This document shows positions 39,201 to 64,000 of a stretch of DNA of 64,000 bases, in pieces (position 1 is the stretch's first letter; every line of letters starts with the position of its first letter). A program made the position numbers and the translations under genes. Location: positions 28,654,218-28,718,217 of the forward strand of contig NC_134846.1 in the NCBI RefSeq assembly GCF_965363235.1, written 5' to 3'. This stretch comes from Mytilus galloprovincialis. Taxonomy: Eukaryota > Mollusca > Bivalvia > Mytilida > Mytilidae. The notes beneath the pieces are model-generated. The model did no database searches, was not told the DNA's origin, and worked only from the letters and a program-made list of their open reading frames with translations.

Positions 39201-42200
39201 AAACTTTTTTAACCCAACTGATTTTTATAGTTCGTTCTTATGTTCTTATGTTGTACTGTTATATATACCACTGTCCCAGGTAAGGGGGGGATCCCGCTAA
39301 CATGTTTAACCCCTCCACATTATTTATGTATGTGGCTGTCCCAAGTCAGGAGCCTGTAATTCAGTGGTTGTCGTTTGTTTATGTGTTAAATATTGAATCA
39401 TATTTGTTTTTCGATATATTTTTTTTTTTATATAAATAAGGCCTTTAGTTTTCTCGTTTAAATTGTTTTGCATTGTCATATCGGGACCTTTTATAGCTGA
39501 CTATGCGGTATGGGATTTGCTTATTGTTGAAGGCTGTACGGTGACCTATGGTTGTTAATGTCTGTGGACAGTTGTCCCACTGGCAGTCATACCACATCTT
39601 CCTTTTTATAGTTGAAAATTTCATTCACCAGAAGATCTCAACATTGCTCCAGAATATCTCAACCGATACCAGAAAATCTCAACATGACATATTTTATAAC
39701 ATATTTAGCATAATGAAATTATATTAGTAAAGAAAAAGAACAAACTATAATTTTATGTTTATAATGTTTTAGAAAAATACTAATTTACTAATATATATGC
39801 TAGTTTATCAATGATATCACTGTCATTTTGTCAATAGCTGACTGCGCTGGCCACATTTACCTGCTGGAGAAAAGTCATTACGATGTCATTTTAAATCCCA
39901 TTCATTTGTGTTATACACGAGACAAACTGTAATTCAAATATCTCTGGCATGACATTCTCCGATTTTACAAAAAAACGCATTGATTTTCAGTAAATTGACG
40001 AAAAGTCGACCTACCCTGTGTTTATTATAAGCTCACCTGGCCTAAAAGGCCATGTGAGCTTTTCTCATCACTTGGCGTCCGTCGTCGTCGTCGTCGTCGT
40101 CTGTCGTCGTTAACAATTTTTCAAACATCTTCTCCTCTGAAACTACTGAATAGATTTGAATGAAACTTAAAAAATGATTGTTCCTTAGATTATCCTGCAC
40201 AAAGTGTGTGCTTCGATTTTTGATCCGTCAAAAAACATGGCCGCCGTTACTTAAAATAGAACATAGGGGTCAAATGCAGTTTTTGGCTTATATCTCAAAA
40301 ACGGAAGCATTTAGAGCAAATCTGACATGGTGTAAAAATGTTCATTAGGTCAAGATCTATCAGCCCAGAAATTTTCAGATGAATCAAACAAACCATTGTT
40401 GGGTTGCTGCCACTTAATTGGTAATTTTAAGGAAATTTTGCAGTTTTTGGTCATTATCTTGAATATTATTATAGATGAAGATAAACTGTAAACAGCAAAA
40501 ATGATCAGCAAAGTAAGATCTACAAATAAGTTAATATGACCAAAATTGTCAATTGACTCCTTAAGGGGTTATTGTCCTTTAATGACAATTTTTCACAATT
40601 TGTTCATCATATTTGCTAACTTTAAAAAATCTTCTCCTCTGAAACTACTGAATGGATTTGAATGAAACTTAGCATGATTGTTCCTTAGATTATCCTGCAC
40701 AAAGTGTGTGCTTCGATTTTTGATCCGTCAAAAAACATGGTCGCCGTTACTTAAAATAGAACATAGGGGTCAAATGCAGTTTTTGGCTTATATCTCAAAA
40801 ACGAAAGCATTTAGAGCAAATCTGACATGGTGTAAAAATGTTCATTAGGTCAAGATCTATCAGCCCTGAAATTTTCAGATGAATCAAACAAACCATTGTT
40901 GGGTTGCTGCCACTTAATTGGTAATTTTAAGGAAATTTTGCAGTTTTTGGTCATTATCTTGAATATTATTATAGATAAAGATAAACTGTAAACAGCAAAA
41001 ATGATCAGCAAAGTAAGATCTACAAATAAGTTAATATGACCAAAATTGTCAATTGACCCCTTAAGGGGTTATTGTCCTTAAATGACAATTTTTCACAATT
41101 TGTTCATCATATTTGCTAACTTTAAAAAATCTTCTCCTCTGAAACTACTGAATGGATTTGGATGAAACTTAGCATGATTGTTCCTTAGATTATCATGCAC
41201 AAAGTGTGTGCTTCGATTTTTGATCCGTCAAAAAATATGGCCGCCGTTACTTAAAATAGAACATAGGGGTCAAATGCAGTTTTTTGGCTTATATCTCAAA
41301 AACGAAAGCATTTAGAGCAAATCTGACATGGTGTAAAAATGTTCATTAGGTCAAGATCTATCAGCCCTGAAATTTTCAGATGAATCAAACAAACCATTGT
41401 TGGGTTGCTGCCACTTAATTGGTAATTTTAAGGAAATTTTGCAGTTTTTGGTCATTATCTTGAATATTATTATAGATAAAGATAAACTGTAAACAGCAAA
41501 AATGATCAGCAAAGTAAGATCTACAAATAAGTTAATATGACCAAAATTGTCAATTGACCCCTTAAGGGGTTATTGTCCTTTAATGACAATTTTTCACAAT
41601 TTGTTCATCATATTTGCTAACTTTAAAAAATCTTCTTCTCTAAAACTACTAAACCAAATGCAACCAAACTTCAACTGAATGATCAGTAGGGTGTATAAAA
41701 TAAAGTTTTTGCTTTATTTTTTATTTCGTCAAAAAACATGGCCGTCATGGCTAAAAATAGAACACAGGGTAAAATGCAGTTTTTGGCTTATATCTCAAAA
41801 ACTCCAGCATTTAGAGCAAATAAGACAAGAAGTTAAAGTATTTATTAGGTCAAGGTCTACCTGTCTTGAAATTTTCAGCCGAATTGGGTAACTGATTTTT
41901 CAGGTATAATGCCCCTGAATTGATGATTTTAAAGAAATTTTGCAGTTTTTGGTTATTATCTTGAATATTATTATAGATACAGATAAACTGTTAATAGCAA
42001 AAATGTTAAGCAAAGTAAGATCAACAAATAAGTCAATTTGACCAAAATTGTCAATTGACCCCTTAAGGGGGCTCGCGGGTCTAAATGAATTTTTTTATTT
42101 AATATAGGATTTCTCTATATTTTTCTATAAATGAACTTTATCTTATACTAAATAGAAAAATGAAATAAAAAAATGGGGTCACCGTTCATTTACGCTCACA

Positions 42201-43450
42201 ATCTGCCTTCGAAAGGAGCATACATTTTTGTTAATATCCTTTTTTTCGGTTGAACTAATAGGAGAAATAGCGGCAATATCGAAATAAAAAAAGAACTAAA
42301 TTACAGAAATCGCTAAAATTTTACAATTATTTAGTCTATGTACAGCTTATTCGAAAACAACAATAAAAAATATAGGTCACCGATGAGTTAAAAAAGATAT
42401 TTCAATTTTTATGCCAAAAAATGGCATTTTTGCACCAAAGGGAGATAATTTGAAGCTTTTTCAATGACGTCTACATTTTAAAAGTCCGCTGGGGCCAACA
42501 CGAATTGATTTTTTGGAATGATTTTTGTACCATATGATAAAGTAACAGCTACTTAAGGTAATCAATAAAATTTGTAATGAAAAATTAATGTTTAATTTTT
42601 TTCTGAAAATCTTATACCCGCGAGCCTCCTTAAGGAGTTATTGCCCTTCAAAGACTTTTTTCACAATTTGTTCATCATGTTGACTTACTTTAAAAAATCT
42701 TCTCCTTTGAAACTGCTGTATCAATTTCAGCCAAACTTAGGCTAAATGAGTTTCAGAGTATCTAGTATAAATTTTATATTTCATTTCCTTGTATGTCAGA
42801 AACATAGCTCCTATGGCTAAAATAGAACATAGGAGAAAATGATTTTTTTTTTGCTTTTGAAGAAAATAGGACGATTCAAAGAACATTTAAATAAATTGAA
42901 AAGCCAAAATAATCATTGATGAGAGATTTAACCAAAAAAATTAAGGTGAGCGATTCAGACTCTTGAGAGCCTCTTGTTTTGAATATTTTGAACCAGAATA
43001 GCTCAACAGGAAGTGCCAGAATACTTTTTTCCGTCTCAACATTTGGTTGAGATTAGATGGTTTACCAGGCGTGAAACAGAAGCCACAACAGCACGAGATG
43101 GAAGCAGGGAGATAGTACCCACAAAGTATCAAGGGGAACCTGAGGGCATTTGCATCAAGACGGACACAGTCATCAGTCCGTACAACCACAGGAAGGCATG
43201 CCATCACCAATACTACCTCCAGCCAACCAAAGACAAAGGCAAGCGATGCCGGATCGACTATGACGAGGGATTCGACCTAGACGATCCCGAGTTGCTCCGG
43301 ACAACTCGACCTCACACACCGCCACTATTGATGCCATCTCCAGAGGCAGTTACATCAGCTCTTTTGATCTTGGAACGGCCAGATACGCCTTATCACACTC
43401 CTAGAAGCAAAGTAAAAGCTAAACGGTCAGCAGAACCAGACAATACGTAG
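36260..43450 (+). CDS. Unidentified exon split by a 6.6-kb insertion
   Basis: The left part is 36260-36498 (acceptor ttcaaatag), the right part 43079-43450 (ending in TAG). Both are GC-richer than their surroundings and in the same reading frame. Left part: YKFSASSDQVSVQLTWIKTK, a Lys/Pro-rich stretch, then FTRRRDAKRYNQWVQAKS. Right part: ATTARDGSREIVPTKYQG, SPYNHRKACHHQYYLQP, then acidic YDEGFDLDDPELL and a basic C-terminus. The region between is a terminal-inverted-repeat element flanked by AAACA. The RRRDAKRYNQW pattern looks familiar from multicopy mollusc and cnidarian open frames, so it may be a repeat-borne gene rather than a unique host gene. I cannot name the product. Confidence 0.6.
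36706..38450. other. Interior of the 6.6-kb element, no gene
   Basis: AT-rich sequence without exons. At 37550-37640 is ggccccgtcacactaggccg followed by a palindrome around gatcgtagtgc, and at 37740-37910 a cluster of AGTTC/GAACTG repeats (agttctagc, tagaactg), both looking like fragments of other transposon ends. Confidence 0.45.
38458..38740 (-). repeat. Mussel-type dispersed repeat, reverse copy
   Basis: Reads tccaatgatacaactctcca, aactagaggtcgccgtacgg, aaaggccccgaaatgacaat and ends at tctagccctggagatgtc. It is the reverse complement of the family in 12965-13393, truncated at its far end. Confidence 0.75.
39190..39606 (+). repeat. Mussel-type dispersed repeat, near full length
   Basis: Runs from catctgatgagttaaac to accacatcttcctttttat and keeps all family blocks (gttcttatgttgtactg, ccaagtcaggagcctgtaat, gactatgcggtatggg). 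It lies 0.5 kb from the inverted copy at 38458-38740. Confidence 0.78.
40027..42978 (+). mobile_element. Hairpin-capped repeat family i, copy 1
   Basis: Starts with the hairpin AGCTCACCTGGCC/GGCCATGTGAGCT, then a gtcgtc microsatellite, then three near-identical 501-bp units (from 40131, 40633 and 41133) and a diverged fourth. It ends with aaggtgagcg, a subterminal inverted match to the 5' GCTCACC, and a final hairpin (actcttgagagcct). The empty target can be read from the other arm of the host element: gtgtttattttcaatatt. The insertion fell inside its T-run and made no long duplication. Non-coding. It resembles a Helentron-type non-autonomous element (HINE). Confidence 0.8.
42067..42629. mobile_element. 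TTAA-flanked MITE inside family i copy 1
   Basis: Inverted ends GGGGGCTCGCGGGT and GGAGGCTCGCGGGT, flanks TTAA on both sides (42063-42066 and 42630-42633). Other units of family i show the empty site ccccttaaggggttattg. A TTAA duplication fits piggyBac or Kolobok; GG-starting ends lean to Kolobok. Length 563 bp, no coding. Confidence 0.85.
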
Positions 43451-43549
43451 AAAGTCCGCAATACCCATAAAGGATAGCCGGATAGAAAAACCCATACATC
43501 ATCATCAAATAGAACAATTATTTGTTATATTCATATGAATACATTCTAA

Positions 43550-43675
43550 TAATTTAACTAAAATTTTAATAAAAAATGGGCGCGAACGTGTAGGGTGCGA
43601 ACGGACTTGGGGGCGAAAATGTGAGGTGCGAACGTGTAGGGTACGAAACTGTATTGGGCGCGAACAAACTGATAG
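43550..43675. repeat. Short gGTGCGAACGTG minisatellite
   Basis: Irregular repeats of gggcgcgaacgtgtaggg, ggtgcgaacg and gggtacgaaactg just downstream of the split exon. GC-richer than surroundings; no frame. Confidence 0.6.
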
Positions 43676-44473
43676 CATATTACTCTTAGTTTCCTTCCCC
43701 TTATTTATATTCACCAGATTTTCCGGGAAACTTGAAAATACAAAAAACAAACACACATTTTAAAGACAAACTGAATGTCCCATCTAACACAAACTCCAAT
43801 CAAAACTGGAATTAATGTTCCGATTGGTCATTTGATAGTAAATCCGAAATGGAAAAATTCAGATTTATCAACAACTTTGCAAAGTATGTATCCTACCGTA
43901 GTCTAAAAATCGGTCACCTTGTTGGTTCGTTCTGTATAAGTGTTTGAACTTATCACACTGGGAAACTATGCATTGGCGTCATTACGCTACTATCATTTAT
44001 TTTTTAGAACATAATTTGTAAAGTGAGGGTACCCAAATTGCACCTATTTTGACCGGTTTTTAACCTACGTTTATTTATGCTTCAGACTAAAGTTTTAATT
44101 ATGTGTTTATTTTAAAGATGTATCATTTTTTACTATATTGGTTTACCAATTTAATTTTGAATCCATATGGAATCATAGAAAATTAGTCTGAACTTACCTC
44201 CAAACCATCAATGATTCTGTAATGATGAGTACCCAAATTGCATCCATGCTGAAATTCGTGTCATCAAAAGGAGAATAACAGAGCTTTTGTTTAATTTCTT
44301 CAAATATTTTGAACAATTGGATATAATACAATCATGCTTACTTTTTAATTTTTAAGAAATGGATTTACCCGATTATGACGGATACTTGTAACATATTGTA
44401 TTTGCTTATTCTAGAAAGATGATGTTTTGATGACGTTGCATGGCGACGTTTCCGTACATTTTGCTTTTTTGGT

Positions 44474-44880
44474 AATGCCCTAAAAAAATATATGTCTGTT
44501 TCCTGCTGCAAAGGCAAATAAATTAGGGTCAGTAGGTCAGGATTTTTTTTTTTATTATTATTATTTTTTCTTTTTTGCACTCCCTTCAGTCTGTTCAATG
44601 TCAGGTTTCGTTGGGTTCCTGTACCCAAAAGTGTGTTAATCTCTTTAAAGAAGCTTTGATTGACTTCTTCTCCCAGTGCCAACATTTTTTAAACCTTAAT
44701 TGTAGCACATTTGTGCTGGGAGCAGCCATTTTTTTTGTTTGGGCATTGTATGATACGGAATCGGACAAGACCGGAAATTTTTTTCTGGAATTTAAAAAAA
44801 AAAGATCTAGGGTCAGGGGTTTTTATCCAGAGTCGGTCGGAAGCAGGAAACAGACATACATTTTTTTTTGGCCCAAACAC
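44474..44880. mobile_element. MITE-like element, about 410 bp
   Basis: Inverted ends share gccc/ggcc, an A-run, and tatgtctgtttcctgc (44490-44515 left; reversed at 44842-44870 right). Between them is non-coding sequence. Short frames on both strands come from the inverted ends. Target duplication not resolved. Confidence 0.6.
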
Positions 44881-45651: not shown

Positions 45652-46942
45652 AGCTCACCTGGCCCAAAGGGCCAAGTGAGCTTTTCCCATCACTTTGCGT
45701 CCGTCTTCCGTCGTCCGTCGTCTGTCGTCCGTCGTCGTTAACTTTTACAAAAATCTTCTCCTCTGGAACTACTTGGCCAAATTAAACCAAACTCAGCTAC
45801 AATCATCATTGGGGTATCTAGTTTGAAAAATGTGTCCGATGACCCGACCAACTAACCAAGATGGCCGCCATGGCTAAAAATAGAACAAAGGGGTAAAATG
45901 CAGTTTTTGGCTTATAACTCAAAAACCAAAGCATTTAGAGCAAATCTGACAGGGTGATTGTTTATCAGGTCAAGATCTATCTGCCCTGAAATTTTCAGAT
46001 GAATCGGACAACCCGTTGCTGGGTTACTGCCCCTGAATTGGTAATTTTAAGGAAATTTTGCGGTTTTTGGTTATTATCTTAAATATTATTATAGATAGAG
46101 ATAAACTGTAAACAGCAATAATGTTCAGTAAAGTAAGATTTACAAATAAGTCAACATGACCAAAATGGTCAGTTGACCCCTTTAGGAGTTATTGCCCTTT
46201 ATAGTCAATTTTTAACCATTTTCGTAAATCTTAGTTATCTTTTACATGAATCTTCTCCTCCTAAACTACTGGGCCAAATTAATCCAAACTTGGCCACAAT
46301 CATCTTTGGGGTATCTAGTTTTAAAAATATGTCCGGTGACCCGGCCATCAAATCAAGATGGCCGCCACGGCTAAAAATAGAACATAGGGGTAAAATGCAG
46401 TTTTTGACTTATAACTCAAAAACCAATGCATTTAGAGCAAATCTGACAGATGTAAAAATGTTTGTCAGGTCAAGATTTAACTGCCCTGAAATTTTCAGAT
46501 GAATCGGACAACCCGTTGTTGGGTTGCTGCCCCTGAATCAGTAATTTTAAGGAAATTTTGCTGTTTTTGGTTATTATCTTGAGTATTATTATAGATAGAG
46601 ATAAACTGCAAACAGCAATAATGTTCAGCAAAGTAAAATTTACAAATAAGTCAACATGACCGAAATGGTCAATTGACCCCCTAAGGAGTTATTGTCCTTT
46701 ATAGTCAATTTTTAAAAATTTTCATAAAATTTGTAAATTTTTATTAACATTTTCCACTGAAACTACTGGGCCAAGTTCATTATAGATAGAGATAATTGTA
46801 AGCAGCAAGACTGTTTAGTTAAGTAAGATGTACAAACACATGACAATCACCAAAACACAATTTTGTCATGAATCCATCTGCTTCCTTTGTTTAATATTCA
46901 CATAGACCAAGATGAGCGACACAGGCTCTTTAGAGCCTCTAG
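45652..46942 (+). mobile_element. Hairpin-capped repeat family i, copy 2
   Basis: AGCTCACCTGGCC/GGCCAAGTGAGCT hairpin after ctttttt-type T-run, a cgtccgtcgtc microsatellite, two ~500-bp units, then gatgagcgacacaggctctt, tagagcctctag and a T-run. This shortest copy shows the whole layout in 1.3 kb. The 3' end is a hairpin followed by CTAG, the form of canonical Helitron ends (CTRR). Confidence 0.8.
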
Positions 46943-46949
46943 TTTTTCG

Positions 46950-48400: not shown

Positions 48401-48409
48401 CATTATTAC

Positions 48410-49212: not shown

Positions 49213-49279
49213 TCAGTGATAATGGACATCATACTCTGAAATATATAAATGAACTAAAATTTAAAATCGAACAAGACTG

Positions 49280-49370
49280 AAAAGGCCAGAGGCTCCTGAC
49301 TTGGGACAGATGCAAAAATGTAGGGGTAAGACATGTTTTCTGAGATCTCAACCCTCCTCTATAGCCAATT
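49280..49370 (-). repeat. Dispersed-repeat fragment (reverse)
   Basis: Contains ggctcctgacttgggacag and agatctcaaccctcctct, the middle of the family described at 12965-13393 in reverse. Confidence 0.6.
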
Positions 49371-49714
49371 TTGAAAAAAAAAACACAGCAATACGCACAG
49401 TAAAACTTTTTTTACATATATTTAGCATTTTTTAGGGAAACTTTGGTGACTAAGAAATCTTGTATGCAGCAAAAATGATCAGGATGACAACAAAAAATAT
49501 TTTAAATTACATTGATTCTGGACTACAATATTGCATAGTGGCCATGGTAAATGTTAAAATATATCTTGGTGAGCGACATTGTCTCATAGACCCTCAAGTT
49601 TTGAAGTTTTGATTCTTTCATATTGAAATAAAACTACTTCTGCCATCAAAATATCTTATATGATCTACACTTATTTATAAAAGTTTATGTGTACCATATC
49701 ATTACTTATTACAG

Positions 49715-49851: not shown

Positions 49852-51614
49852 GTAAAAATAAGTTACCTCAACAGTTATAAGGCCATGGGATCTATTGCCA
49901 CCACTTTGGGTCTTTTCTCTGTACATTTTCTTTAAAAAATCTTTCTCTGAAACTGCTCAAAGGATTAAAAATAATTGTGTTTGCTGTCTCTACAGGATGT
50001 CTGCTTTTTGTTTGTGATTTTTTTCCAGTTTTAAGAAATCCCCTGAAATGTTGATTAAAAATGATTCTATTGGGCCAAGGAAGCTGTTGGCATCAGTTAA
50101 TGAAGTTATTGTCCTAAAACTCCTTTTATGAATATTTTTACCACTTTTTAGCTCACCTGGCCGAAAGGCCAAGTGAGCTTTTCTCATCACTTGGCGTCCA
50201 GCTTCCGTCGTCGTCGTCCTGCGTTAACTTTTACAAAAATCTTCTCCTCTGAAACTACTGGGCCAAATTTAACCAAACTTGGCCACAGTCATCATTGGGG
50301 TATCTAGTTTAAAAAATGTGTCCGGTGACCCAGTCAACCAATCAAGATGGCCACCATGGCTAAAAATAGAACATGGGGGTAAAATGCAGTTTTTGGCTTA
50401 TAACTCAAAAACCAAAGCATTTAGAGCAAATCTGACGTGGGTAAAATTGTTCATCAGGTCAAGATCTATCTGCCCTGAAATTTTCAGATGAATCAGACAA
50501 CCCGTTGTTGGGTTGCTGCCCCTGAATTGGTTATTTTAAGGAAATTTTACTGTTTTTGGTTATTATCTTGAAAATTATTATAGATAGAGATAAACTGTAA
50601 ACAGCAATAATGTTCAGCAAAGTAAGATTTACAAATAAGTCAACATGACCGAAATGGTCAATTGTCCCCTTTAGGAGTTATTGCCCCTTATAGTCAATTT
50701 TTAACCATTTTTCGTAAATCTTAGTCATCTTTTAGAAAAATCTTCTCTGAAACTACTGGGCCAAATTAATCCAGACTTGGCCACAATCATCATTGGGGTA
50801 TCTAGTTTAAAAAATGTGTCCGGTGACCCAGTCAACCAACCAAGATGGCCACCATGGCTTAAAATAGAACATGGGGGTAAAATGCAGTTTTTGGCTTATA
50901 ACTCAAAAACCAAAGCATTTAGAGCAAATCTGACATGGGTTAAAATTGTTCATCAGGTCAAAATCTATCTGCCCTGAAATTTTAAGATGAATCGGACAAC
51001 CTGTTGTTGGGTTGTTGCCCCTGAATTGGTAATTTTAAGGAAATTTTACTGTTTTTGGTTATTATCTTGAATATTATTATAGATAGAGATAAACTGTTAA
51101 CAGCAATAATGTTCAGCAAAGTAAGATTTACAAATAAGTCAACATGACTGAAATGGTCAGTTGACCCCTTTAGGAGTTATTGCCCTTTATAGTCAATTTT
51201 TAACCATTTTTCGTAAATCTTAGTAATCTTTTACAAAAATCTTCTCCTCTGAAACTACTGGGCCAAATTAATCCAGACTTGGTCACAATCATCATTGGGG
51301 TATCTAGTTTAAAAAATGTGTTCGGTGACCCGGCCAACTAACCAAGATGGCCGCCACGCCTAAAAATAGAACATAGGGGTAAAATGCAGTTTTTGGCTTA
51401 TAACTTAAAAACCAAAGCTGTTAGAGCAAATCTGACATGGGTAAAATTGTTCATCAGGTCAAAATTTATCTGCCCTGAAATTTTAAGATGAATCGGACAA
51501 CCTGTTGTTGGGTTGCTGCCCCTGAATTGGTAATTTTAAGGAAATTTTACTGTTTTTATACGACCGCAAAATTTGAAAAATTTTTCGTCGTATATTGCTA
51601 TCACGTTGGCGTCT

Positions 51615-51649
<35 letters not shown>

Positions 51650-54600
51650 CGGCGTCCGAATACTTTTAGTTTTCGCACTCTAACTTTAGTAAAAGTGAAT
51701 GGAAATCTATGAAATTTTAACACAAGGTTTATGACCACAAAAGGAAGGTTGGTATTGATTATGGGAGTTTTGGTCCCAACATTTTAGGAATTAGGGGCCA
51801 AAAAGGGCCCAAATAAGCATTTTCTTGGTTTTCACACTATAACTTTAGTTTAAGTTAATAGAAATCTATGAAATTTTGACACAAGGTTTATGACCACAAA
51901 AGAAAGGTTGGGATTGATTTTGGGAGTTTTGGTTCCAACAGTTTAGGAATTAGGGGCCAAAAAAGGGCCCAAATAAGCATTATTCTAGGTTTTCGCACAA
52001 TAACTTTAGTTTAAGTTAATAGAAATCAATGAAATTTAAACACAATGTTTATGACCACAAAAGGAAGGTTGGTATTGATTTTGGGAGTTTTGGTCCCAAC
52101 AGTTTAGGAATAAGGGGCCCAAAGGGTCCAAAATTGAACTTTGTGTGATTTCATCAAAAATTGAATAATTGGGGTTCTGTGATATGCCGAATCTAACTAT
52201 GTATGTAGATTCTTAACTTTTGGTCCCGTTTTCAAATTGGTCTACATTAAGGTCCAAAGGGTCCAAAATTAAACTTAGTTTGATTTTAACAAAAATTGAA
52301 TCCTTGGGGTTCTTTGATATGCTGAATTTAAAAATGTACTTAGATTTTTAATTATTGGCCTAGTTTTCAAGTTGGTCCAAATGGGGGTCTAAAATTAAAC
52401 TTTGTTTGATTTCATCAAAAATTGAATAAATGGGTTCTTTGATATGCCAAATCTAACTGTGTATGTAGATTCATAATTTTTGGTCCAGTTTTCAAATTGG
52501 TCTACATTAAGGTCCAAAGGGTCCAAAATTAAACTAAGTTTGATTTTAACAAAAATTAAATTCTTGGGCTTATTTGATATGCTTTATCTAAATATGTACT
52601 TTGATTTTTGATTATGGGCCCAGTTTTCAAGTTGGTCCAAATCAGGATTCCATATGAAATATTGTGCAATAGCAAGAAATTTTCAATTGCACAGTATTGC
52701 ACAATAGCAAGAAATATCTAATTGCACAATATTGTGTAATAGCAATTAATTTTCAATTGGAGTTATCTTTCTTTGTATAGAATAGTAGTTGATAATATAT
52801 GTTGGAAATTTGCCAGACATGACTATGATGTCATTTTCTATTTTTATTTGCCAATAACTTTATGTAAATGACTTCATTGGAAATTTGCCAATATAAAATG
52901 TTGCTGATGAAGCTTTTTTTCCTTATCTTATCTAAAATGTTTTTAGATAATGTATGTTGGACATTTGCAAGACATGACTATGATGTCATTTTCTATTTTT
53001 ATTTGCCAATAACTTTATGTAAATAACTTCATTGGAAATTTGCCAATATAAAATGTTGCTGATGAAGTTTTTTTTATTGTTTTATACAATAAACAATGTA
53101 TATTCACTTTTACTACCAACCAATCTTTACCATTCAGTGATAACAAGCACTTTATTTTACATTTTAATATTTTATGATGTATTTAAAAGAGTAGTTATTG
53201 TTGCAAACTCCATTAGAAATTTGAATTGATATCAGTTTTGGAAAAAGGGAAACGGGGATGTGAAAAAAAGGGGGGGGGGGGGTTAAATTTTTCTCATTTC
53301 AGATTTCATAAATAAAAAGAAAATTTCTTCAAACATTTTTTTGAGAGGATTAATATTCAACAGCATAGTGAATTGCTCAAAGGCAAAAAAAAACTTTTAA
53401 GTTCATTAGACCACATTCGTTCTGTGTCAGAAACCTATGCTGTGTCATGATCAACTATTTAATTTTAGATTTAAAAAGTTTGAAGAAGAAATCTTTAATT
53501 GATTTGTAAAATCTTGACATTTGTTTTGTGTAAAAAAAAACCATGTAATGTCAAAAATTTGATCACAATCCAAATTCAGAGCTGTATCACGCTTGAATGT
53601 TTTGTCCATACTTGCCCCAACTGTTCAGGGTTCGACCTCTGCGGTCGTATAAAGCTGCGCCCTGCGGAGCACCTGGTTGGTTATTATCTTGAATATTATT
53701 ATAGATAGAGATAAACTGTAAACAGCAATAATGTTCAGCAAAGTAAGATTTACAAATAAGTCAACATGACCGAAATGGTCAGTTGACCCCTTTAGGAGTT
53801 ATTGCCCTTTATAGTCAATTTTTAACCATTTTTCGTAAATTTTTAGTAATCTTTTACAAAAATCTTCTCCTCTGAAACTACTGGGCCAAATTAATCCAGA
53901 CTTGGCCACAATCATCATTGGGGTATCAAGTTTAAAATATGTGTCCGGTGACCTGGCCAACTAACCAAGATGGCCGCCACGCATAGAAATAGAACATGGG
54001 GGTAAAATGCAGTTTTTGGCTTATAACTCAAAAACCAAAGCATTTAGAGCAAATCTGACATGGGTAAAAAAATTTATCGGGTCAAGATCTATCTGCCCTG
54101 AAATTTTCAAATGAATCAGACAACCTGTTGTTGGGTTGCTGCCCCTGAATTGGTAATTTTAAGGAAATTTTGCTGTTTTTGGTTATTATCTTGAATATTA
54201 TTATAGATAGAGATAAACTGTAAACAGCAATAATGTACAGCAAAGTAAGACCTAAAAAGAAGTCAACATGACCAAAATGGTCAATTGACCCCTAAGGAGT
54301 TATTGCCCTTTATATAGTCATTTTTTTAACAATTTTCACAAAATTTGTAAAATTTTACTAACATTTTCCACTGTAACTACTGGGTCAAGTTCATTATAGA
54401 TAGAGATAATTGTAAGCAGCAAGAATGTTCAGTAAAGTAAGATCTACAAACACATCACCATCACCAAACCACAATTTTGTCTTGAATCCATCTGTGTCCT
54501 TTGTTTAGTATTCACATAGACCAAGGTGAGCGACACAGGCTCTTTAGAGCCTCTAGTTTTGTAAAAGAAGATAACTTCATTGGCCATGGTCTTCAAATAA

Positions 54601-57600
54601 TCTTCCTGATGGTGCTAAAAAGTTACAAATTAACAATATGTAGTATAAGACATCTTATTTATAGTTCATTGCAGTTTAAGTAATTGGCATATAGATGCAG
54701 TATTTCTTAACAATATGTGGCATACCATGCAAGATGACCTCTGACCTTGACCTGTGACCCTCTTAAAAACTGTTCAGAATCTGAAACATATTAATTCTGA
54801 ACTGCCATTTCAAAACCTTATTGATGTACTATAGATTTTGTATATCGTGGGTGTGTGGGGGTCATACACCACTGCCTCATTTCATCAACTGTTGAACATG
54901 TTGAAAACAGTGAAGATTCTCTCCTCCCATTAATCAAATAAATATTCTTTTTTGCCATGATATATTTTCAGTTCCTGAATTTGTTTGTATGACAATTCTT
55001 TTACTGAAGTGACTTCTAGACATGAAAGGGAGAAATTAGTTTGAATTCACTGTAATAAATAATATGTGACATTTTAATAGAGATGACATTGTACATCATT
55101 TAAAAAGTACAGGAAGGCTTTGGCATTGAAGAATATGAAATATTAAAGTTCAAACAATGAATATAGACTTAAAAAAATAGGTTTCTTTTATTTGATTACC
55201 TTATTTATTACCAAAAAAAGAAAGAATTTGAGCACTTAAAACTTTAACTATATAACTTTTAAATGAACGTTAAGAAAATATTCCTTGTTTAAACATATTT
55301 CATATTCTTCAATGTCAAAGACTTCCTGGATTTTATAAGTGACGTAAAATGTCATCTCTATTAAAGCGTCACATCTTTCATACTACACTTGGCTTTAATC
55401 AATCAAAATGAAGCATTAATTCTCAGCAGGGATATTAAAATGGCTGCAAGATTGAAAGTGTATGCATTTGTTGGTCTTTTAGAGATATGTCATTTGGTTA
55501 GACAACTGAAAGCAAGATAGAGTTGAGTCTGAGATTCTGTATTAATGTTGAAAGGTTTGACACATTAAATAATTAAGTTGATTGGACATAAAAGAGTGCA
55601 TTGTTGGATTAGCACCATATTATTTAGCACAAAACTGGAATCAATTCCTGTATCAATAAGTTAATGCAATTGATTAAAATTTATTTACAAATCATGTCCG
55701 TTATAATAAATATTCAAGTTCACAAACATATCTTATTTCTCTGATTTGGTATTTCAAATTAGAAATTCACTTTTTGATTATTTCCATGCTTACAAACACA
55801 CAGAGAGAAATACTGGTTCTTAATGTTATCCTATATCAATTCTATCTCACCTAGTCCTACCAATGAAAAGCAAAGGACAGGACTAAAGATTACAAACAGT
55901 GCAATAACAAACAGTCATGACAGTTGAATTCCACATTTTGTTCTATAACAGAGCAGGGGAGATAACAAAAGCTTATAATCTGTTTTTATAGGCTAACAAA
56001 TTGAAGTAATAGAGAGGAGAACAGGTACCACTAAACACTTCAGATATGTATATTTTTATTATAAAAAAAAGAAGGCAACAGCAGTCAATATATTACAGCA
56101 ACTAAAACAAAGTTTATTGTTGTTTTTTTTTATAAACTGAACTTAAATGTTATAATTAAATTTAAGAATGCCAGACATGCATTTATTCTACAAATGACTC
56201 ACGAGTCATGTGAGTGGGAGAGAGTATAACCATAAAGTTTAGTATTATAAAATAGCTTGTGATTGTAGATACAACCATGACAACTAAGAACCAGTATTTC
56301 TCTCGTTGTAAGACCTTTTTGTACTATTTCAGGCCAACATGATACCTATTGTTGTGATTGTAGAGTCAACAAAGAACCAGTATTTCTCTCGTTGTAAGAC
56401 CTTTTTGTACTATTTCAGGCCAACATGATACCTATTGTTGTGATTGTAGAGTCAACAAAGAACCAGTATTTCTCTCGTTGTAAGACCTTTTTGTACTATT
56501 TCAGGCAAACACGATACCTATTGTTGTGATTGTAGAGACAACTAAGAACCAGTATTTCTTTCGTTGTAAGACCTTTTTGTACTATTTCAGGCAAACACGA
56601 TACCTATTGTTGTGATTGTAGAGACAACTAAGAACCAGTATTTCTCTCGTTGTAAGACCTTTTTGTACTATTTCAGGCAAACACGATACCTATTGTTGTG
56701 ATTGTAGAGACAACTAAGAACCAGTATTTCTCTCGTTGTAAGACCTTTTTGTACTATTTCAGGCAAACACGATACCTATTGTTGTGATTGTAGAGACAAC
56801 TAAGAACCAGTATTTCTCTCGTTGTAAGACCTTTTTGTACTATTTCAGGCAAACACGATACCTATTGTTGTGATTGTAGATACAACAAAGAACCAGTATT
56901 TCACTAGTAGTTACACCTTTTGTACTGTTTCAGGCCAACAAGATACCTATTGTTGTGATAGGAGAGAGAACTAGAACAAGCAGTCAGTATTTTTGTTCCC
57001 TTCAGAAGTTTTGTGTTATGGAACTTGGATTTTCATTGATACCAGTCCCTTCACAGAAAGAGGCAGGAACATTTCTAGCTCAAATGGTTAGTTTGATACA
57101 AGAAAAGTGTTTTTTTTTTTGCTTAACATGAAAGGTTTCTTGCTCTTAAATCAAAATGCTATACTTCCAACTTTATCTGTTTGTAAAATTTAAAGAATTT
57201 TGTTCCAAATTGACTCAGATACTGAAAATATTTAGTACGTGGTAATGTGTATTATTCCCAATCAAAATTACAAAGATTTGCTACAAGTTTTTCATTACAA
57301 TATTTTTTAGAACAAACATAGCTTTGTAGTTTAAACGTTAATCATGTTAATTGGTTTCAGTTTTTGTCGAGCCTGCAACTTTTGTTGCAGAAAGCTTGAC
57401 ATAGGGATAGTGATCCGGCGACTACGTCGGCTACGGCGGCTATGGTGGCGGCAGCGTTAGCTAACTTCTTAAAAGCTTTATATTTTAGAAGGTGGAAGAC
57501 CTGGATGCTTCATACTTTGTATATAGATGCCTCATGTTACGAAGTTTCCGTCAGTCACATGTCCAATGTCCTTGACCTCATTTTCATGGTTCAGTGACCA

Positions 57601-59896
57601 CTTGAAAAAAAAGTTCAGATTTTTTGTAATGTTGAATTCTCTCTTATTATAAGTAATAGGATAACTATATTTGATATGTGCGTACCTTGCAAGGTCCTCA
57701 TGTCTGTCAGACAGTTTTCACTTGACCTCGACCTCATTTCATGGATCAGTGAACAAGGTTAAGTTTTGGTGGTCAAGTCCATATCTCAGATACTATAAGC
57801 AATAGGGCTAGTATATTCGGTGTATGGAAGGACTGTAAGGTGTACATGTCCAACTGGCAGGTGTCATCTGACCTTGACCTCATTTTCATGGTTCAGTGGT
57901 TATAGTTAAATTTTTGTGTTTTGGTCTGTTTTTTTCATACTATATGCAATAGGTCTACAATATTTGTTGTATGGAATGATTGTAAGGTGTACATGTCTAG
58001 CGGGCAGATGTCATGTAACCTTGACCTCATTTTCATGGTGCAGTGGTTATAGTTAAATTTTTGTGTTTTGGTCTGTTTTTTTCATACTATATGCAATAGG
58101 TCTACTATATTTGTTGTATGGAATGATTGTAAGGTGTACATGTCTAGCGGGGAGATGTCATGTGACCTTGACCTCATTTTCATGGTTCAGTGGTCAAAGT
58201 TAAGTTTTTGAGTTTTAGTCTTTTTATCTAATACTATATGCCATAGGTCAACTATATTTGGTGTATGGAAATATTTTATGATCTTTATGTCAGTAGCGCA
58301 GGCTTCTTTTGACCGTGATCTCATTTTCACGGTTCATTGCACAGTGTTAAGTTTTTGTGTTTTGGTCTATTTTTCTTAAACTATAAGTAATAGGTCAACT
58401 ATATATGTTGTATAGAAGCATTGTTAGCTGTACATGTCTGCCTGGCATGGTTCATCTAACCTTGACCTCATTTTCATGGTTCATTGGTCTTTGTTTAGTT
58501 ATCTTGGTTAATGTTAAGTTTATGAGACAGTTGTAATAAAGCTTTATACTAAGGACTATTAACATAATATCAATGATTAGTATAGATGGCGAGACATTTC
58601 AGCATGTGCACTCTTGTCTACATAAAGTTAAATTTATGTCTCTTTATTGTTGTGGGTACCAATTTTCGATGATTAAATTAAACTTAGATAATTGTGGATT
58701 ATTAATTTAGTTGTTTAGCTGAGGTCTACATGCAAGACTATAGAAAATTTGTTATTCGTTGAACAGTTAATTTTGTGGTGTACCTTTACCCACAAAAATT
58801 GGTATCCAACGAATAATAATGAATCCACAGAAATAAGATGAATACACTGGTAGTTAGTAATTGTATGCTGTTATGCCATTTAAAAGGTTTGAAAACAGAT
58901 TTGATCAAAAGTTTTCAGTTGAAATTGAGAACTTGAGTGTTTTGTACTTTTCAGGTCCATGTTGAAGGACACAAGGAGACCAATCCATTCACCAAGAAGA
59001 AGAGATCAACACCTTTAGATCAAGCTTTGTTAGCTTCTGTTAAATCTATACCTAAACTAGGAGAAGTTAAATCTAGAATGTTATTGGAAAAGTTTGGAAG
59101 TATGTAATAGAAATTGGCATAGTATTATTTGTTATTGATACATAATATTTGGATTTCCTGGGTCAATAATGAATGTTTAACTTAGTATGATTTGTTTACA
59201 GGTTTGTATGCATCAATAAAATCAATAAATTTTTTACTCAATCTACATATTGGCACCCACAAACATAATCATCTACAGTTCTTGAATTTTTAATGAAATT
59301 GAAACACATCAACAAACTCAGGGACATGTAAATTTTGTTTAGTTTAAGATTAGCATTACATAATATCTGATATTGTTTTAAGAAATAAGTAAATGATTTA
59401 AATTGTCAGGGCATGTAATTTTATTAAGTTTGTCATGGACTTAATTAGTAAGTCATAGATCATTTTTGGTTCTTTTCAGGTAAGTTGTATTGCATTATTG
59501 TTACCATGGTTACTAATTCATCTAATTTAAAATAAATAAATAGGGGAGTTGGGTGGATGGGCTGTTGTTGTTTGGATGCTGGTATCTGGGTCATTTTGAA
59601 TTTAGGAGGTCCCTGGTAATATCCAAAGACTTGAAACTGGTATTGGCTGCAACAAGGTCCAAAGTACATGAAAACAAACTCAAACAAGTATCAAGTCTTG
59701 GACTTCAGGGACTGTCAGTCACTGCAGGGTTCTCATTAAGGATTTTGGAAGGCGAGTTGTGGACTTGTCATTTTTGGCCATGGTGAGTCCTAACAGTAAG
59801 AAAATATTTCATTTTCTTTCTGCATTAAACATTTGATTACAAATCCTTATTATCTTATTTTCAGGTCTCCAAGCTATAAGTAAAGCATCCATTCAA
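49715..59896 (+). CDS. FAAP24: FAAP24, Fanconi anaemia core complex subunit (partial)
   Basis: Four exons align in order with vertebrate FAAP24 as I remember it, about 215 aa in human: 49715-49851, 56934-57086, 58955-59098 and 59866-59896, with matching splice phases. FAAP24 pairs with FANCM, has a catalytically dead XPF-type nuclease fold followed by helix-hairpin-helix motifs, binds single-stranded/forked DNA and brings the core complex to stalled forks. The visible exons cover the nuclease-like fold (DFYPSSNTGVVYITEAEL, VVIGERTRTSSQYF, MELGFSLIPVPSQKEA) and the first helix-hairpin-helix (SVKSIPKLGEVKSRMLLEKF). The first exon (NEKWRGS-like N-terminus) and the end of the second hairpin were not located. 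The 7-kb second visible intron is packed with repeats. Confidence 0.85.
50150..54556 (+). mobile_element. Hairpin-capped repeat family i, copy 3
   Basis: Same ends as copy 2: AGCTCACCTGGCC/GGCCAAGTGAGCT hairpin, and caaggtgagcgacacaggct with tagagcctctag at the right. Internal ~500-bp units start near 50235, 50740 and 51235 and resume at 53865 after a 2.1-kb insert of family ii (51558-53677). It lies in a FAAP24 intron in the sense orientation. Confidence 0.82.
51558..53677 (+). mobile_element. Hairpin-capped repeat family ii, nested in family i
   Basis: Begins after a T5 run with the hairpin atacgaccgc ... gtcgtat, then a gtcgtc microsatellite (51600-51650), then about three 161-bp units (tttatgaccacaaaaggaag) and further short duplications (52790-53075). 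Near the 3' end tgcggtcgtata is the reverse of the 5' start, followed by the hairpin gctgcgccctgcggagc and acctgg. The empty site ctgtttttggttattatc is present in neighbouring units, so the insertion is into a T-run with no long duplication. Confidence 0.82.
54557..55063. other. FAAP24 intron sequence, no feature
   Basis: Unique-looking AT-rich intron. It includes tgacctctgaccttgacctg (54733), a familiar phrase of family iii repeats, but no full element. Confidence 0.4.
55064..55378. mobile_element. 315-bp foldback element in FAAP24 intron
   Basis: Arms of about 95 bases: gtgacattttaatagagatg and cattgaagaatatgaaatat on the left recur in reverse at 55290-55378. Identity is about 85 percent by eye, with a 120-bp spacer. 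No coding. Confidence 0.75.
56258..56932 (+). repeat. 86-bp tandem array of partial FAAP24 exon copies
   Basis: Seven units carry the block gatacctattgttgtgatt at 56341, 56427, 56513, 56599, 56685, 56771 and 56857, spacing exactly 86, preceded by a partial unit from about 56258. The real exon at 56934 has the same block 85 bases after the last one. Each unit holds the polypyrimidine tract and AG acceptor (ttgtactatttcag) and the first ~20 codons of the exon (IPIVVIVE.TKNQYFSR). A gtaaga donor-like site follows. Read from a decoy acceptor the frame ends in a stop in the next unit. Confidence 0.88.
56934..57086 (+). CDS. FAAP24: FAAP24 exon: second half of XPF-like fold
   Basis: Acceptor gtttcag, donor gttagt, 51 codons in phase 0. 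Reads ANKIPIVVIGERTRTSSQYF then CSLQKFCVMELGFSLIPVPS and QKEAGTFLAQM. Matches human GIVVVEKTRMSEQYFPALQK and LDLGMVLLPVASQMEA. Chosen over the upstream repeats because only this copy continues in frame to the conserved ELGFSLIPV part. Confidence 0.88.
57366..58616 (+). mobile_element. Hairpin-capped repeat family iii
   Basis: After a T5 run it starts gtcgagcctgcaac/gttgcagaaagcttgac, a hairpin, followed by a cggcgactacgtcggctacg stretch. Then come about seven units of ~145 bases with ccttgacctcattttcatgg. It ends near ggcgagacatttcagcatgt and gtgcactcttg. The plan matches families i and ii with unrelated sequence. It sits in the FAAP24 intron between 57086 and 58955. The 3' boundary is approximate. 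Confidence 0.7.
58955..59098 (+). CDS. FAAP24: FAAP24 exon: linker and first HhH hairpin
   Basis: Acceptor cttttcag, donor gtatgt. Reads VHVEGHKETNPFTKKKRSTP, then LDQALLASVKSIPKLGEVKS and RMLLEKFG, leaving one base. NPFTKKKR matches human NPLLGKKR, and SIPKLGEVKSRMLLEKF matches QIPGVGKVKAPLLLQKF, the DNA-binding helix-hairpin-helix. Confidence 0.88.
59866..59896 (+). CDS. FAAP24: FAAP24 small exon: start of second HhH
   Basis: Acceptor tattttcag, donor gtgagt. The single base from the previous exon completes Ser, then LQAISKASIQ, matching human SIQQLSNASI. It leaves in phase 0. The expected continuation (ELEQVVG.AVA..I..FF in human) was not found between 59897 and 61200. Confidence 0.78.
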
Positions 59897-61199
59897 GTGA
59901 GTATGTTTTCTAGAAAATTGTTGAATATTTGAGAAAAGAAACTAGTAAGTTGTCTACTGGTGGCAATACTGTTGGCCTACTTAAGTTGACAGTAGACAAC
60001 TTACTAGTGTTACATAAATCCCAAAAATGAATTAAAATTGTACGAATCTCTACATCGATTAAAGCAAATATACTGAGTGCCAATATATAAGAACCACTTG
60101 CATCCATTTTTTTTATTTGATAATTATATTATTTTCACCAATTCTTCTTTAGAATTGAACAAATGATCTTATACTTGGCTCAATATATTTAAAGTAATCT
60201 CATGTTGCTCTCTCAATTATATATATTTTTATTTTAACCAAAATCAACCTAGAAAATTTACAAATTTGATTGTACCTTTAAATTTGTATCATGAAGAATG
60301 AAAACTGCACAAATGAACAAATTTTAGATAATAAGTATAAAATTAAACCAAAAAGAATTTGAAAAGTTTTAAGTGTCATATGTTTGAATTTGATATACAT
60401 GTTTAAGTCTGAAAATTGAACCCAACAGTGTTAGAGTTAGATTTCTATGCTGACAAATTATTGTGCCACAACAAGTTTTGATCTTGCAAGTTTGATACAC
60501 TACAGAACCAATCGCTTAGCCTCATGCCAGGCACTCTGGAAAACTCGACCACAATTGTTATATTAAAAAATAACTTCAATAGTTGTAGTGTTACTTGTCA
60601 TGTAAGGAAAATCTTGAAATAGACATGAGACATGAAAGTTAAAAGACAAAAAAAGCTATCATTTTCCAAATCTATAGGATCCCTTGAATGAATCGAGAAG
60701 GTCATGCTGATGGTTTAACACTGAAGTGCATGTTGTTATTATGACAAGAATTTTTCTGATGGCTACACTGAAGTTATATGGTGGTAACACTGAAGTCTGA
60801 TGCTCTACACAAACTATGGTACATTTGTAATGCTTTTCATGTCAAATTAGATGTCAATTTTTATGTTAGAAGCAATTTTTATGTTAGAAGCAATTTTCCA
60901 GGTTTTAAAGTTGATAAGGGGATTAGATAAACTGCTAATGTAGAATTATATCCACATGTAGAAAATCAAAGAGGAGGGATCTCTCATTTAGTATGCAACT
61001 GATATTTAGGACAGCCATAGACCATGAATAATGAGTAAATTTATATACTAACTATTGAAACAATCTATTTTACATAATAATTGCAGGTCTGTAAATTTTA
61101 AACAAACAATCATACAATAAATAGACCATCTCACATCAGCATTCAAACCATCACACTTCAGGTAGAGCATCACCCTTCAGTGTCCCCATTGCACCTCAG
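59897..61199. other. Downstream of FAAP24, with one short hairpin
   Basis: At 59940-60007 two 18-bp arms (ctagtaagttgtctact and its reverse) flank a 30-base loop. Candidate acceptors at 60677 and 60899 lead to short frames (DPLNESRRSC and VLKLIRGLDKLLM) that do not resemble the FAAP24 C-terminus. Tandem gttagaagcaatttt occurs near 60868-60895. No other feature. Confidence 0.45.
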
Positions 61200-61310
61200 A
61201 GTTGCAGTAGGACAACCGGAAGCGCCTGAGTAAGGATTTCAGCGCTCAGTGATACGGTTCACTAGACGACGTTGTCAACACGTAATGGCGGCCATTATTT
61301 GACGTCGGAT
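61200..61310 (+). promoter_or_regulatory. TATA-less promoter-like block
   Basis: A GC-richer island in AT-rich DNA with an ETS-type site ACCGGAAGC (61215-61223), the palindrome AATGGCGGCCATT (61284-61296) containing a YY1-type ATGGCGGC, and a CRE-like TGACGTC (61300-61306). Clustering of these three is typical of housekeeping promoters. It precedes a donor at 61411 and so probably drives the next plus-strand gene. Confidence 0.55.
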
Positions 61311-61411
61311 TTGGCATTCCTCGTTGAAAGTTGCATTTATGACATTCTTGGATGCTTAAACTTATTTGTGCCACACAACATAAAAGATAAAGCATTATCC
61401 AGATATTGCAG
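61311..61411 (+). other. Putative non-coding first exon
   Basis: The sequence after the promoter block runs to cagatattgcag followed by donor gtaatt at 61412. It contains no long frame, which suits a 5' UTR exon joined to the exon at 63196. The start is a guess. Confidence 0.4.
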
Positions 61412-62599
61412 GTAATTATTTTCAAAGAAGTCGTATCCCAAGAAATGATCTAAACGGCAAAAATAAAGTGTAAAATAATATGAAACATGAATATTGAAAT
61501 CCAAGTTTTCATCATTTCCTTTTCATGTAATGAATTTACTATTTATCACTTTTATCATTTTATTACATTCGGATTTCGGTCTGGGGTATCCGCCCTTGTC
61601 TCTGGAAATATTATACCCACTGTCAACATCCGTTTTCAAACTGGACAGACAAAATTAAAAAAGTGTTCTTCACGATCTCCATGGAAATAATTCACGCTAT
61701 CACTTTGTGAACATTATAAACCTGAAACTGCAAATACGGACCAAAACGAATCAAATTTGAAAGCGTGGATGAAAATTGATCATGTTTCATGCCGACTGTA
61801 AGTTCTCTAAAAAAAGGTAGTGGGTTGGGTGGGTACTCCATGAATTTTGCTGCACGTCAACTGGTCAAAGACGTCCATGTACTAAATCATTAGAATGTAA
61901 GACATATTCACTTTAACTCTTGGCTACTTTATACCTGGTCTTATATAAATAAATTCCCATTTTATCTGGGAACAATTAATTTTATCCTCATTATAAACTA
62001 ACTATCTAACTAATTTTATTCAGGATAAAATCCAGTACAAAAGGATCATCGCTGAAACACATGAACACATATAAAAACATATACAAAACAAAACAACAAT
62101 AAAACATAACAGCCAACACTTTTGACACTTATAACAACATGAACAAGCAAGAGACAAAACTCATTATATGTTTATGTGTTAAGAATCAGAATGTATTGTG
62201 TATTGTTGTCATTATTGCCCGTCAGGGGGCTTTAATTGGAAAATAAAGAATTTTGAACTTTTATATGTCCCAGATTTCATTTATATAATACATGTACACT
62301 CAAGTTTAATATTTTATCTCTAAAAATTAAATCTTTTATGAACACAAATTGATACAATACAAAGGGAAAGGAATTATAGGCTCCAGTCATGCTTCAGTCC
62401 CTATATAATCGACCAATAAAGTCATGACAGTGGTGGTTCCATGATTTTAATTGAGAAAAACTGGGTTGTGAATGCCCCCAAAATGTATATAATTTTAGCT
62501 TGTATAGTACATGTTATATATTTATGTACACTATAATATAATTGAATATAAAAATGTTAATGAAAGGATTGTTAACACTCAAATCTGCTCCATGTTATG

Positions 62600-62926
62600 A
62601 TATTAAACATTGTTATCTAACATGTTTAACACCACCACATTATTAATGTATGTGCCTGTCCCAAGTCAGGAGCCTGTAATTCAGTGGTTGTCGTTTGTTT
62701 ATGTGTTACATATTTGTTCTTATTTTTTTCATAAATAAGGCCGTTAGTTTTCTCGTTTGAATTGTTTTACATTGTCTTATCGGGGCTCTTTATAGCTGAC
62801 TATGTGGTATGGGCTTTGCTCATTGTTGAAGGCTGTACAGTGACCTATAGTTGTTAATGTCTGTGTCATTTTGGTCTTTTGTGGATAGTTGTCTCATTGG
62901 CAATCATACCACATCTTTTTTTTTAA
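62600..62926 (+). repeat. Mussel-type dispersed repeat
   Basis: Contains gtgcctgtcccaagtcagga, cgtttgttt, tagctgactatgtggtatgg and caatcataccacatcttttt, same family as 12965-13393. Lies in the putative first intron of the next gene. Confidence 0.78.
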
Positions 62927-63195
62927 TATTATACCTAAAAAATAAATTTTCAAGACTTGGAAATATTTTCTTTGCCCATTATTGCCTTTAACTTTTATGT
63001 ATTGAGCAAAATGCTTGAGGCATAATTATTTATAATACTTAGTAAAAACATTTATTTTCTTGGTAATTCATATGGCAAATTTGTATTAATGTGTTGATAA
63101 TAACAAATATATTAATGCAAAGTTTAATTTTGCTTTGAATAATTTAGTATATAATTTATTTAGTAATTGTATGTTCATTTGCTTTATATTTACAG

Positions 63196-63406
63196 GAAGG
63201 AGAAAGATGTTCACTATGAATAAAAAATTCAGTACATAGGACTGTTATATATCAACAAAAAACACTTGTACGTACATGTACATGTGTATGTGTGATATAC
63301 ATACAACAAGAAAACAGTAATCAAATGGAATGTCAAGGACCAGTGTCCAGTAATGTTGAAAGCAAAATGATTTTGATAGAAACAATAGGACTAGAATATA
63401 TTAAGG
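63196..63406 (+). CDS. Putative start exon of the next gene
   Basis: Acceptor atatttacag and donor gtaagt bound 211 bases. An ATG at 63325 opens a frame MECQGPVSSNVESKMILIET then IGLEYIKG that runs to the donor in phase 1; stops lie upstream in frame, so this would be the start codon. An alternative is that 63196 is a FAAP24 terminal exon (EGERCSL then stop, with aataaa right after), but it lacks the second hairpin. The product is not recognised. Confidence 0.4.
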
Positions 63407-63906
63407 GTAAGTAATCCAAAAGTGTCTGTTTAGGGTAAAAACAGTCAGTTATTTACAGTGTGCTATGATTTCAATCCCACAAATATGAAACAAAAACATA
63501 ATATACATGGTATGCAGACTGTTTTCATAAGGGAATAGACTGAAAATATCTACATTTAACAGTCAGACATAATTATATACTAAATTATTCTTTTTTATAT
63601 ATAAAAGTTGCCAATGGAATAAATTGAGGATGGAAATTGTAATTAATGAGATATAGGTAAAAGAATCATACACAGACTTTAAGGCCGAATGGTATTCTTT
63701 TAATAGTTTAAAGATTTTATTCTGTTATCTATGCTGTATAAATGTCAAGAAAGTTACATTTGGATTTAAAACCTAATTTCAAGAATGAAGGGTACCATAA
63801 TTTAAATTTAATTTATGATAAAAAAAACAATATAAGGGAATTAACTCTTACATGATGTGCATCATATCCATGCAAATGAAGCGTTTTAATAAATCTGACC
63901 ATTTTT

Positions 63907-64000
63907 ATACGACCACAAAAATTGAAAATTTTTTGGTCGTATATTGGTATCACGTTGGCGTTGGTGTTGTCGTCCGAATACTTTTAGTTTTTGCACTCTA
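63907..64000 (+). mobile_element. Hairpin-capped repeat family ii, 5' end, cut by window
   Basis: T5 run, then atacgaccac ... ggtcgtat hairpin, ttggtatcacgttggcg, a short gtcgtccg stretch and atacttttagtttttgcact. It is a second, independent copy of the family nested at 51558-53677 and confirms that family's 5' terminus. Confidence 0.8.

Follow-up and report, generated by a model that had tools for sequence, protein, structure and literature searches.

We analyzed a stretch of 64,000 nucleotides from the genome of Mytilus galloprovincialis (RefSeq assembly GCF_965363235.1, contig NC_134846.1, positions 28,654,218 to 28,718,217, forward strand), hereafter the window, which contains copies of four repeat families, i to iv. 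Helentrons are endonuclease-bearing relatives of Helitrons, and HINEs are their non-autonomous partners. We consider it quite likely that the four families are HINEs or HINE-like elements, noncoding passengers of Helentrons, with family i most likely moved by a Helentron group designated lineage A; drivers for families ii, iii, and iv are assumed by analogy. The elements have exact ends and sit in T-runs, with no target duplication except, at most, of two Ts; their end plan recurs in lineage C, a Helentron group that encodes Rep.

When the window was scanned for the shared layout, 6 places matched, 4 of them at named tips, whereas 60 dinucleotide shuffles averaged 1.07 matches and reached at most 5; the tips at 40030, 57366, and 28220 missed the scan criteria. 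Layout alone exceeds chance, but not by much, and genome-wide copy numbers settle the matter. The family i 3′ end comes in a CTCTAG type (5,071 exact copies of a 34-mer) and a CTCTTG type (1,730 copies), and the family iii 3′ end was found 2,613 times, with 0 matches in the reversed control in each case; the family iv search returned 3,450 candidates, of which 40 were scored. A query with the family ii 3′ end gave 0 candidates and missed even the window's own copy, a negative that therefore carries no weight. A common family i 3′ end followed by diverging flanks was seen in 30/30 fetched loci (best 40 of 1,303 candidates scored), a set that includes the window's own copy and two loci, L059 and L060, with a common flank. 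The Ts after these 30 ends are partly selected because the query contained TTTT; for the CTCTTG ends, searched with no T selection in the query, TT comes next in 1,656 of 1,730. The family i 5′ tip, AGCTCACC, was common to all eight loci compared. The T-run that the original prediction placed before the tips is reflected in a preceding T at seven of these loci; the window copy has an A. In the window, the tip at 40030 is preceded by TTATTATA instead of a T-run.

Empty sites, derived from undamaged sibling repeat units, were available for several insertions. Family ii in a family i unit has 7 Ts at the filled site and 5 at the empty site (taken from the units of copy i-3 at 50540 and 51039), family iv in a family i unit has the same counts, and Helentron C in a family ii body has 6 and 4. 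All three countable insertions have T-run targets and no duplication beyond two extra Ts; the original prediction had looked to fixed-length target duplications as the sign of a different mechanism, and none other than these two Ts was seen. At a fourth site, one of the two Helentron C copies contains family iv and the other lacks it, with T-runs too diverged for counting. No empty site was found for family iii. Families ii and iv were both found nested inside Helentron copies, which indicates shared targets and not shared machinery.

The ends were folded and compared with shuffled sequences. The 5′ tips of families i, ii, and iii and of an intact family iv copy from elsewhere in the genome are palindromic, with z scores from −4.0 to −5.7: those of family i form 12 to 13 base pairs around one mismatch (z from −5.2 to −5.7), the family ii tip at 51558, folded over 51557-51597, gave −4.0, and the intact family iv copy gave −5.1. 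The family iv fragment in the window, with a 6-bp hairpin and a z score of −0.85, falls short. In a second test, the first 16 nt of each tip were sought in inverse orientation in about the last 60 nt of the element and compared with 5000 shuffles. Family i has an inverse copy of 8 nt (16/5000 shuffles as good, in each of two copies), family ii one of 11 nt (0/5000), and intact family iv one of 9 nt (7/5000); the inverse copy lies ∼28 to 48 nt inside the 3′ end, ahead of the hairpin. By folding energy, the 3′ hairpin is clear in Helentron C (z of −2.8 and −3.7) and modest in family i copies i-3 and i-2 (−2.1 and −1.8); it equals shuffles in families ii and iv (−0.8 and −0.2) and is absent from the mutated copy i-1. 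The four 5′ hairpins of the original prediction therefore hold up, apart from the weak one in the window's family iv fragment, as do its inverse tip copies in families i and ii; the 3′ hairpin that it put behind them is borne out less evenly. Defined ends read CTNG before T: CTAG or CTTG in family i, CTGG in family ii, CTTG in families iii and iv, and CTAG and CTTG in Helentrons A and C, respectively. Canonical Helitron 3′ ends obey a CTRR rule, which CTAG and CTGG fit and CTTG does not, and the CTNG ends are close to this rule.

Matches to the Helitron Rep domain, PF14214, number 138 in the genome, some of them pieces of one locus. Among the best 30, motif 2 has the Helentron form (RGSPH) in 28 and the Helitron form in 2; the serine in RGSPH marks a Helentron Rep, according to the accessible part of PMC4067079. 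Both loci of lineage C carry the Helentron form, FFRTEFQQRGSPHIH. The 3′ end of lineage C was defined by the point at which two Rep-bearing copies, C2 and C6, diverge, and its 5′ end was taken from C6, which sits in a family ii body. The element opens with AAGTCTCCCAAACAAAGTTTGGAGACTT, after which come sequence rich in T and CTT and then a tandem array; the 3′ side has an inverse tip copy of 16 nt, a 7-bp hairpin, and the terminal CTTG. No shuffle of 5000 gave an inverse copy as good (5′ tip from C6, 3′ end from C2). Lineage C is a Rep-bearing Helentron with a palindromic tip, an inverse copy, and a 3′ hairpin, the end plan of the families; the original prediction had named an end structure shared with a Helentron as its support.

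Lineage C has non-autonomous relatives. Its 32-bp 3′ tip occurs in 777 copies at up to 2 mismatches and in 0 in the reversed control. Three copies were fetched: L096 (HINE-C) has both ends within ∼1.5 kb, too short for the gene, and matches the Helentron 5′ part at 90% identity over 1,290 bp; L094 matches the array and 3′ end; and L095 has the 3′ end alone, beside other repeats. Over the last 60 bp, family C and its Helentron are 91.7% identical. A lineage C tip also lies ∼11 kb downstream of the Rep of L015, possibly as a chance insertion.

Lineage A, whose Rep exceeds the Pfam cut-off, connects family i to a Rep-bearing element. Its 3′ end, AAGGTGAGCGACACAGGGTCCTTGGACCCTCTAG, was read in five of seven copies, the exact copy lying beyond the stretch fetched in the other two; the five ends are followed by TT and then by differing sequences, one of which looks by eye like a family i unit. 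Genome-wide, the lineage A 34-mer has 32 exact copies, against 0 in the control. For 29 of these, a Rep on the same strand lies ≤25 kb upstream (at 6.4 to 7.8 kb in 27 cases), and for three there is none; this count used the 28 Reps of a single profile class plus 4 that were picked manually, and taking the nearest of the 138 Reps by absolute distance gives 27/32. Conversely, 26/28 Reps of the lineage A profile class have the 34-mer downstream. Since the pattern was taken from lineage A itself, this link is what would be expected if the 34-mer is the end of the element, and we conclude that it is the lineage A end and is nearly confined to lineage A. The family i 34-mer has the same base at 30 of 34 positions, and the four differences make up two compensated pairs of a 6-bp stem. 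Identity between lineage A and family i across the terminal 60 bp is 68.9%, compared with ≤58.8% in 500 shuffles; family i copies i-1 and i-3 are 65.0% identical to each other over the same length. The shared tip, the paired stem changes, and these numbers point to lineage A as the probable driver of family i.

One lineage A copy, A75, seems at first sight to begin with a family ii tip, as if a family ii 5′ end had been joined to a family i 3′ end. This candidate was dropped in view of L107 and of the same array in A76, which place the tip in a family ii copy that inserted into the 5′ part of A75. In two lineage A copies with different 3′ flanks, A75 and C13m, a family ii copy joins the 5′ region at an identical point (L092, L107, and L105), and the nested passenger therefore seems to have been carried along with the Helentron.

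The L023 lineage ends differently from families i to iv and from lineages A and C, with a 9-bp hairpin and TTGG before Ts. One copy, read in pieces, carries OTU, DUF6570, Rep, PIF1, and Exo_endo_phos; matches in one copy include PF05970 (PIF1 helicase; E, 6.2e-27) and PF03372 (endonuclease; E, 1.1e-8). L023 and its relatives have a Helentron-form motif 2, FYRVEFQQRGSPHTH. A family iv-like stretch upstream of the gene was considered as the 5′ end of this lineage and rejected: both family iv ends are present and the stretch lies within both copies, so that it represents a nested, decayed family iv element. In two members, L071 and L074, the next unit starts and ends with the 9-bp 3′ hairpin of the Helentron, as if the end were tandemly repeated. 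In the L069 Helentron protein, the part ahead of Rep matches both OTU (E, 1.8e-10) and the herpesvirus tegument N-terminal family (E, 1.8e-6), perhaps as two deubiquitinase-like domains. In two further lineages, L085 and L087, the frames behind the endonuclease look OB-fold/RPA-like by eye; their only Pfam matches are below the cut-off (HIN, E of 0.0015; Ssb-like, E of 0.029).

Within the window, family i 5′ tips are found at 40030 (40027 in the original prediction), 45652, and 50150. Copy i-1 (40030-42976, plus strand) has a 5′ hairpin at 40030-40060, a CGT repeat at 40080-40110, and an array at 40119-42070; its inverse copy starts at 42945, the hairpin is mutated, and the terminus is CTCTTG followed by TTTT. 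Its body is broken by an element at 42067-42629 with inverted ends GGRGGCTCGCGGGT and TTAA on both sides, which resembles a piggyBac-type passenger. Copy i-2 (45652-46942, plus strand) has a 5′ hairpin, a CGTCCGT repeat at 45698-45736, an array at 45737-46774, an inverse copy with one change (GATGAGCG), a 3′ hairpin, and the end CTCTAG followed by TTTTT. A diverged family i 3′ end at 49568-49598 (plus strand) has no matching 5′ end nearby. Copy i-3 (50150-54556, plus strand), with its 3′ end at 54525-54556 (CTCTAG, then TTTT), is split by a nested full copy of family ii. The latter (51558-53676, plus strand) has a 5′ hairpin, 11 CGT units at 51616-51649, arrays at 51669-52642, an inverse copy TGCGGTCGTATA at 53640-53651, a weak 3′ hairpin, and the terminus CCTGG, after which come TT and the resumed family i unit. 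A second family ii 5′ end (63907-64000, plus strand) is cut off by the window edge; both family ii tips stand where they had been placed. The single family iii copy (57366-58616, plus strand) has a 5′ hairpin at 57366-57400, a GGC-rich stretch, an array of 147-bp units at 57723-58489, and the terminus GGCGAGACATTTCAGCATGTGCACTCTTG followed by T. Of family iv, the window has only a minus-strand 5′ piece, running from 28220 to 28087, which comprises a T-run, a weak ATGCCC/GGGCAT hairpin, and a CGTC-rich stretch; no 3′ end was found within the 64-kb window, and an intact copy lies elsewhere in the genome.

Behind the tips of families i and ii lie microsatellites rich in GTC (CGT ×10 and ×11, CGTCCGT ×5.6) and then arrays of ∼500 and ∼159 bp. 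The original prediction gave every family a CGTC- or GTC-rich microsatellite, which is accurate for families i, ii, and iv, the stretch beside the family iii hairpin being GGC/CGG-rich. It also gave families i, ii, and iii arrays of 501, 161, and 145 bp; the arrays are there, with periods of 500 (40119-42070 and 45737-46774) and 499 (50228-51557) in family i, 159 and 135/260 in family ii, and 147 in family iii. We propose that these arrays are body sequence riding along with the elements. The common layout itself is clear in families i and ii; family iii lacks the inverse copy, and family iv in the window is a 5′ fragment.

Family iii sits between two exons, 56934-57086 and one near 58955 (58955-59101), which when joined match the FANCM pseudonuclease domain (E, 2e-13) and probably belong to a FAAP24-like gene; no paper naming FAAP24 in connection with Mytilus was found. 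At 56279-57086, 8.2 copies of an 86-bp unit, which carries a 3′ splice site and the first part of an exon, end at the real exon 56934-57086. Elsewhere in the window, a ACACACTGAG-type unit forms two oppositely oriented arrays, ∼560 bp apart, at 16567-16904 and 17464-17677, and a 20-bp unit based on the palindrome TTTAACGCGTTAAA forms arrays at 20920-21485 and 25538-25790.

Under the HINE interpretation, a Helentron Rep would nick beside the palindromic 5′ tip at a T-run, a helicase would displace one strand while replication followed, the 3′ hairpin and terminal CTNG would bring this to a halt, and the freed strand would be joined into a T-run elsewhere. Lineage C, with the same end plan, and lineage A, with the family i 3′ end, both support this interpretation. 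Several points weigh against it. In family iii, the best inverse match is 4 nt, equaled by 4205/5000 shuffles; the inverse copy is therefore called absent, the 3′ hairpin is likewise absent by folding, and the family is HINE-like only. The 3′ hairpin of Helentron A is weak (z of −1.1, 32/200 shuffles as good). The 68.9% identity between lineage A and family i is below the 80% subfamily rule found in the accessible part of PMC4067079, and the family i body has no further match in the four lineage A stretches compared, most of the gene and the 5′ end being outside them. The last 81 residues of the lineage A protein match Exo_endo_phos_2 below the Pfam cut-off (E, 8.5e-4; 19.6 versus 27.4 bits), and its Rep motif 2, helicase, and 5′ end lay outside the stretches read. 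The lineage C gene was read for Rep and the last 58 residues, which have no Pfam match, the helicase/endonuclease part being outside. The two extra Ts at filled sites could be a TT duplication, indistinguishable from element-borne Ts. Finally, the evidence is sequence, and movement by a Helentron is what it suggests.

The original prediction had one machinery moving all four families, and this is not demonstrated: at least two lineages have their own ends, family iii lacks the inverse copy, and no driver was found for families ii, iii, and iv among the lineages whose 3′ ends were read (A, C, and L023; those of B and D to I lie beyond the stretches fetched). It is a serious possibility, though we would not call it probable, that the families are HINEs each with its own Helentron, so that the common plan reflects descent of the end structure and not one machine serving unrelated passengers. 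The tips of lineages A and C differ and both lineages have non-autonomous relatives of their own, the L023 lineage adds a third end type, and HINE-C closely resembles its Helentron, as this account would have it; however, family i shares only about the last 34 to 36 bp with the fetched parts of lineage A, and no partner was found for families ii, iii, and iv. A stronger form of the HINE interpretation, with a probability somewhat short of even, is that a Helentron can move passengers that share little with it beyond a 3′ hairpin tip read by its fold. Lineage A, whose profile class has 28 Reps, would then be responsible for thousands of copies of family i, although their bodies do not resemble the part of lineage A that was read, and a small hairpin, CTNG, and T would be the common ticket, except in the L023 lineage with its TTGG.

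It is very unlikely that the elements are canonical Helitrons. Two of the 30 Rep loci read have the Helitron motif and the CTAG and CTGG ends fit CTRR, but the CTTG ends of i-1, family iii, family iv, and Helentron C do not, insertions are in T-runs, families i, ii, and iv have inverse tip copies and 5′ palindromes, and lineage C carries the Helentron motif. Less likely still are miniature inverted-repeat transposable elements moved by a DDE transposase, or foldback elements, an account already disfavored: inverted tip copies near both ends and the two extra Ts would suit it, but the inverse copy lies well inside the 3′ end, before the hairpin, the same ends are found on Rep-bearing elements, and the duplication is never longer than TT. 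Ordinary dispersed satellite arrays with a coincidental layout, for which the modest excess in the layout scan leaves room, are hardly credible given exact ends in thousands of copies, 0 in reversed controls, and clean empty sites; for families i, ii, and iv, the empty sites or exact ends already refute this account.

The kind of element is already known. In the oyster Crassostrea gigas, the Cg_HINEs comprise unrelated families on one plan with T-rich targets and central arrays, and the authors were unable to connect any autonomous Helentron with them (PMC7492417, accessible part). The Mytilus families resemble them in the 5′ subterminal repeat with its inverse, the GTC-type microsatellite, the central satellite-like array, the 3′ inverse repeat and palindrome (in some of the families here), the T-rich targets without target duplication (here, none beyond two Ts), and the existence of several unrelated families; they differ in sequence (as compared by description, not by alignment) and in that lineage A shares the family i 3′ tip. 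Pearl, and MgE of M. galloprovincialis, later recast as non-autonomous Helentrons according to the same source, are likewise bivalve elements with ∼160-bp arrays, set beside ours by description only. In mites, mosquitoes, and flies, including DINE-1, the passengers are described as deletion derivatives with high identity to their partner (PMC4067079, accessible part). Palindromic subterminal repeats, a 3′ stem-loop (in some of the families here), T-rich targets, terminal Ts varying in number, the serine of RGSPH in Rep, and copy numbers exceeding those of the gene-bearing partner are common to these elements and ours. HINE-C fits the published pattern, whereas family i resembles the fetched lineage A parts at the tip only. 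Neither a bivalve passenger-driver pair nor a pair with similarity confined to the tip was found in the literature searched, with subscription journals mostly outside it (accessible parts of sources including PMC7492417, PMC4067079, PMC11136912, PMC10294476, and PMC12628747).

A 34-bp end common to a Rep-bearing lineage and >5,000 passengers, with paired hairpin changes, provides a candidate driver and a testable recognition signal, and it bears on how satellite-like repeats scatter through mollusc genomes.

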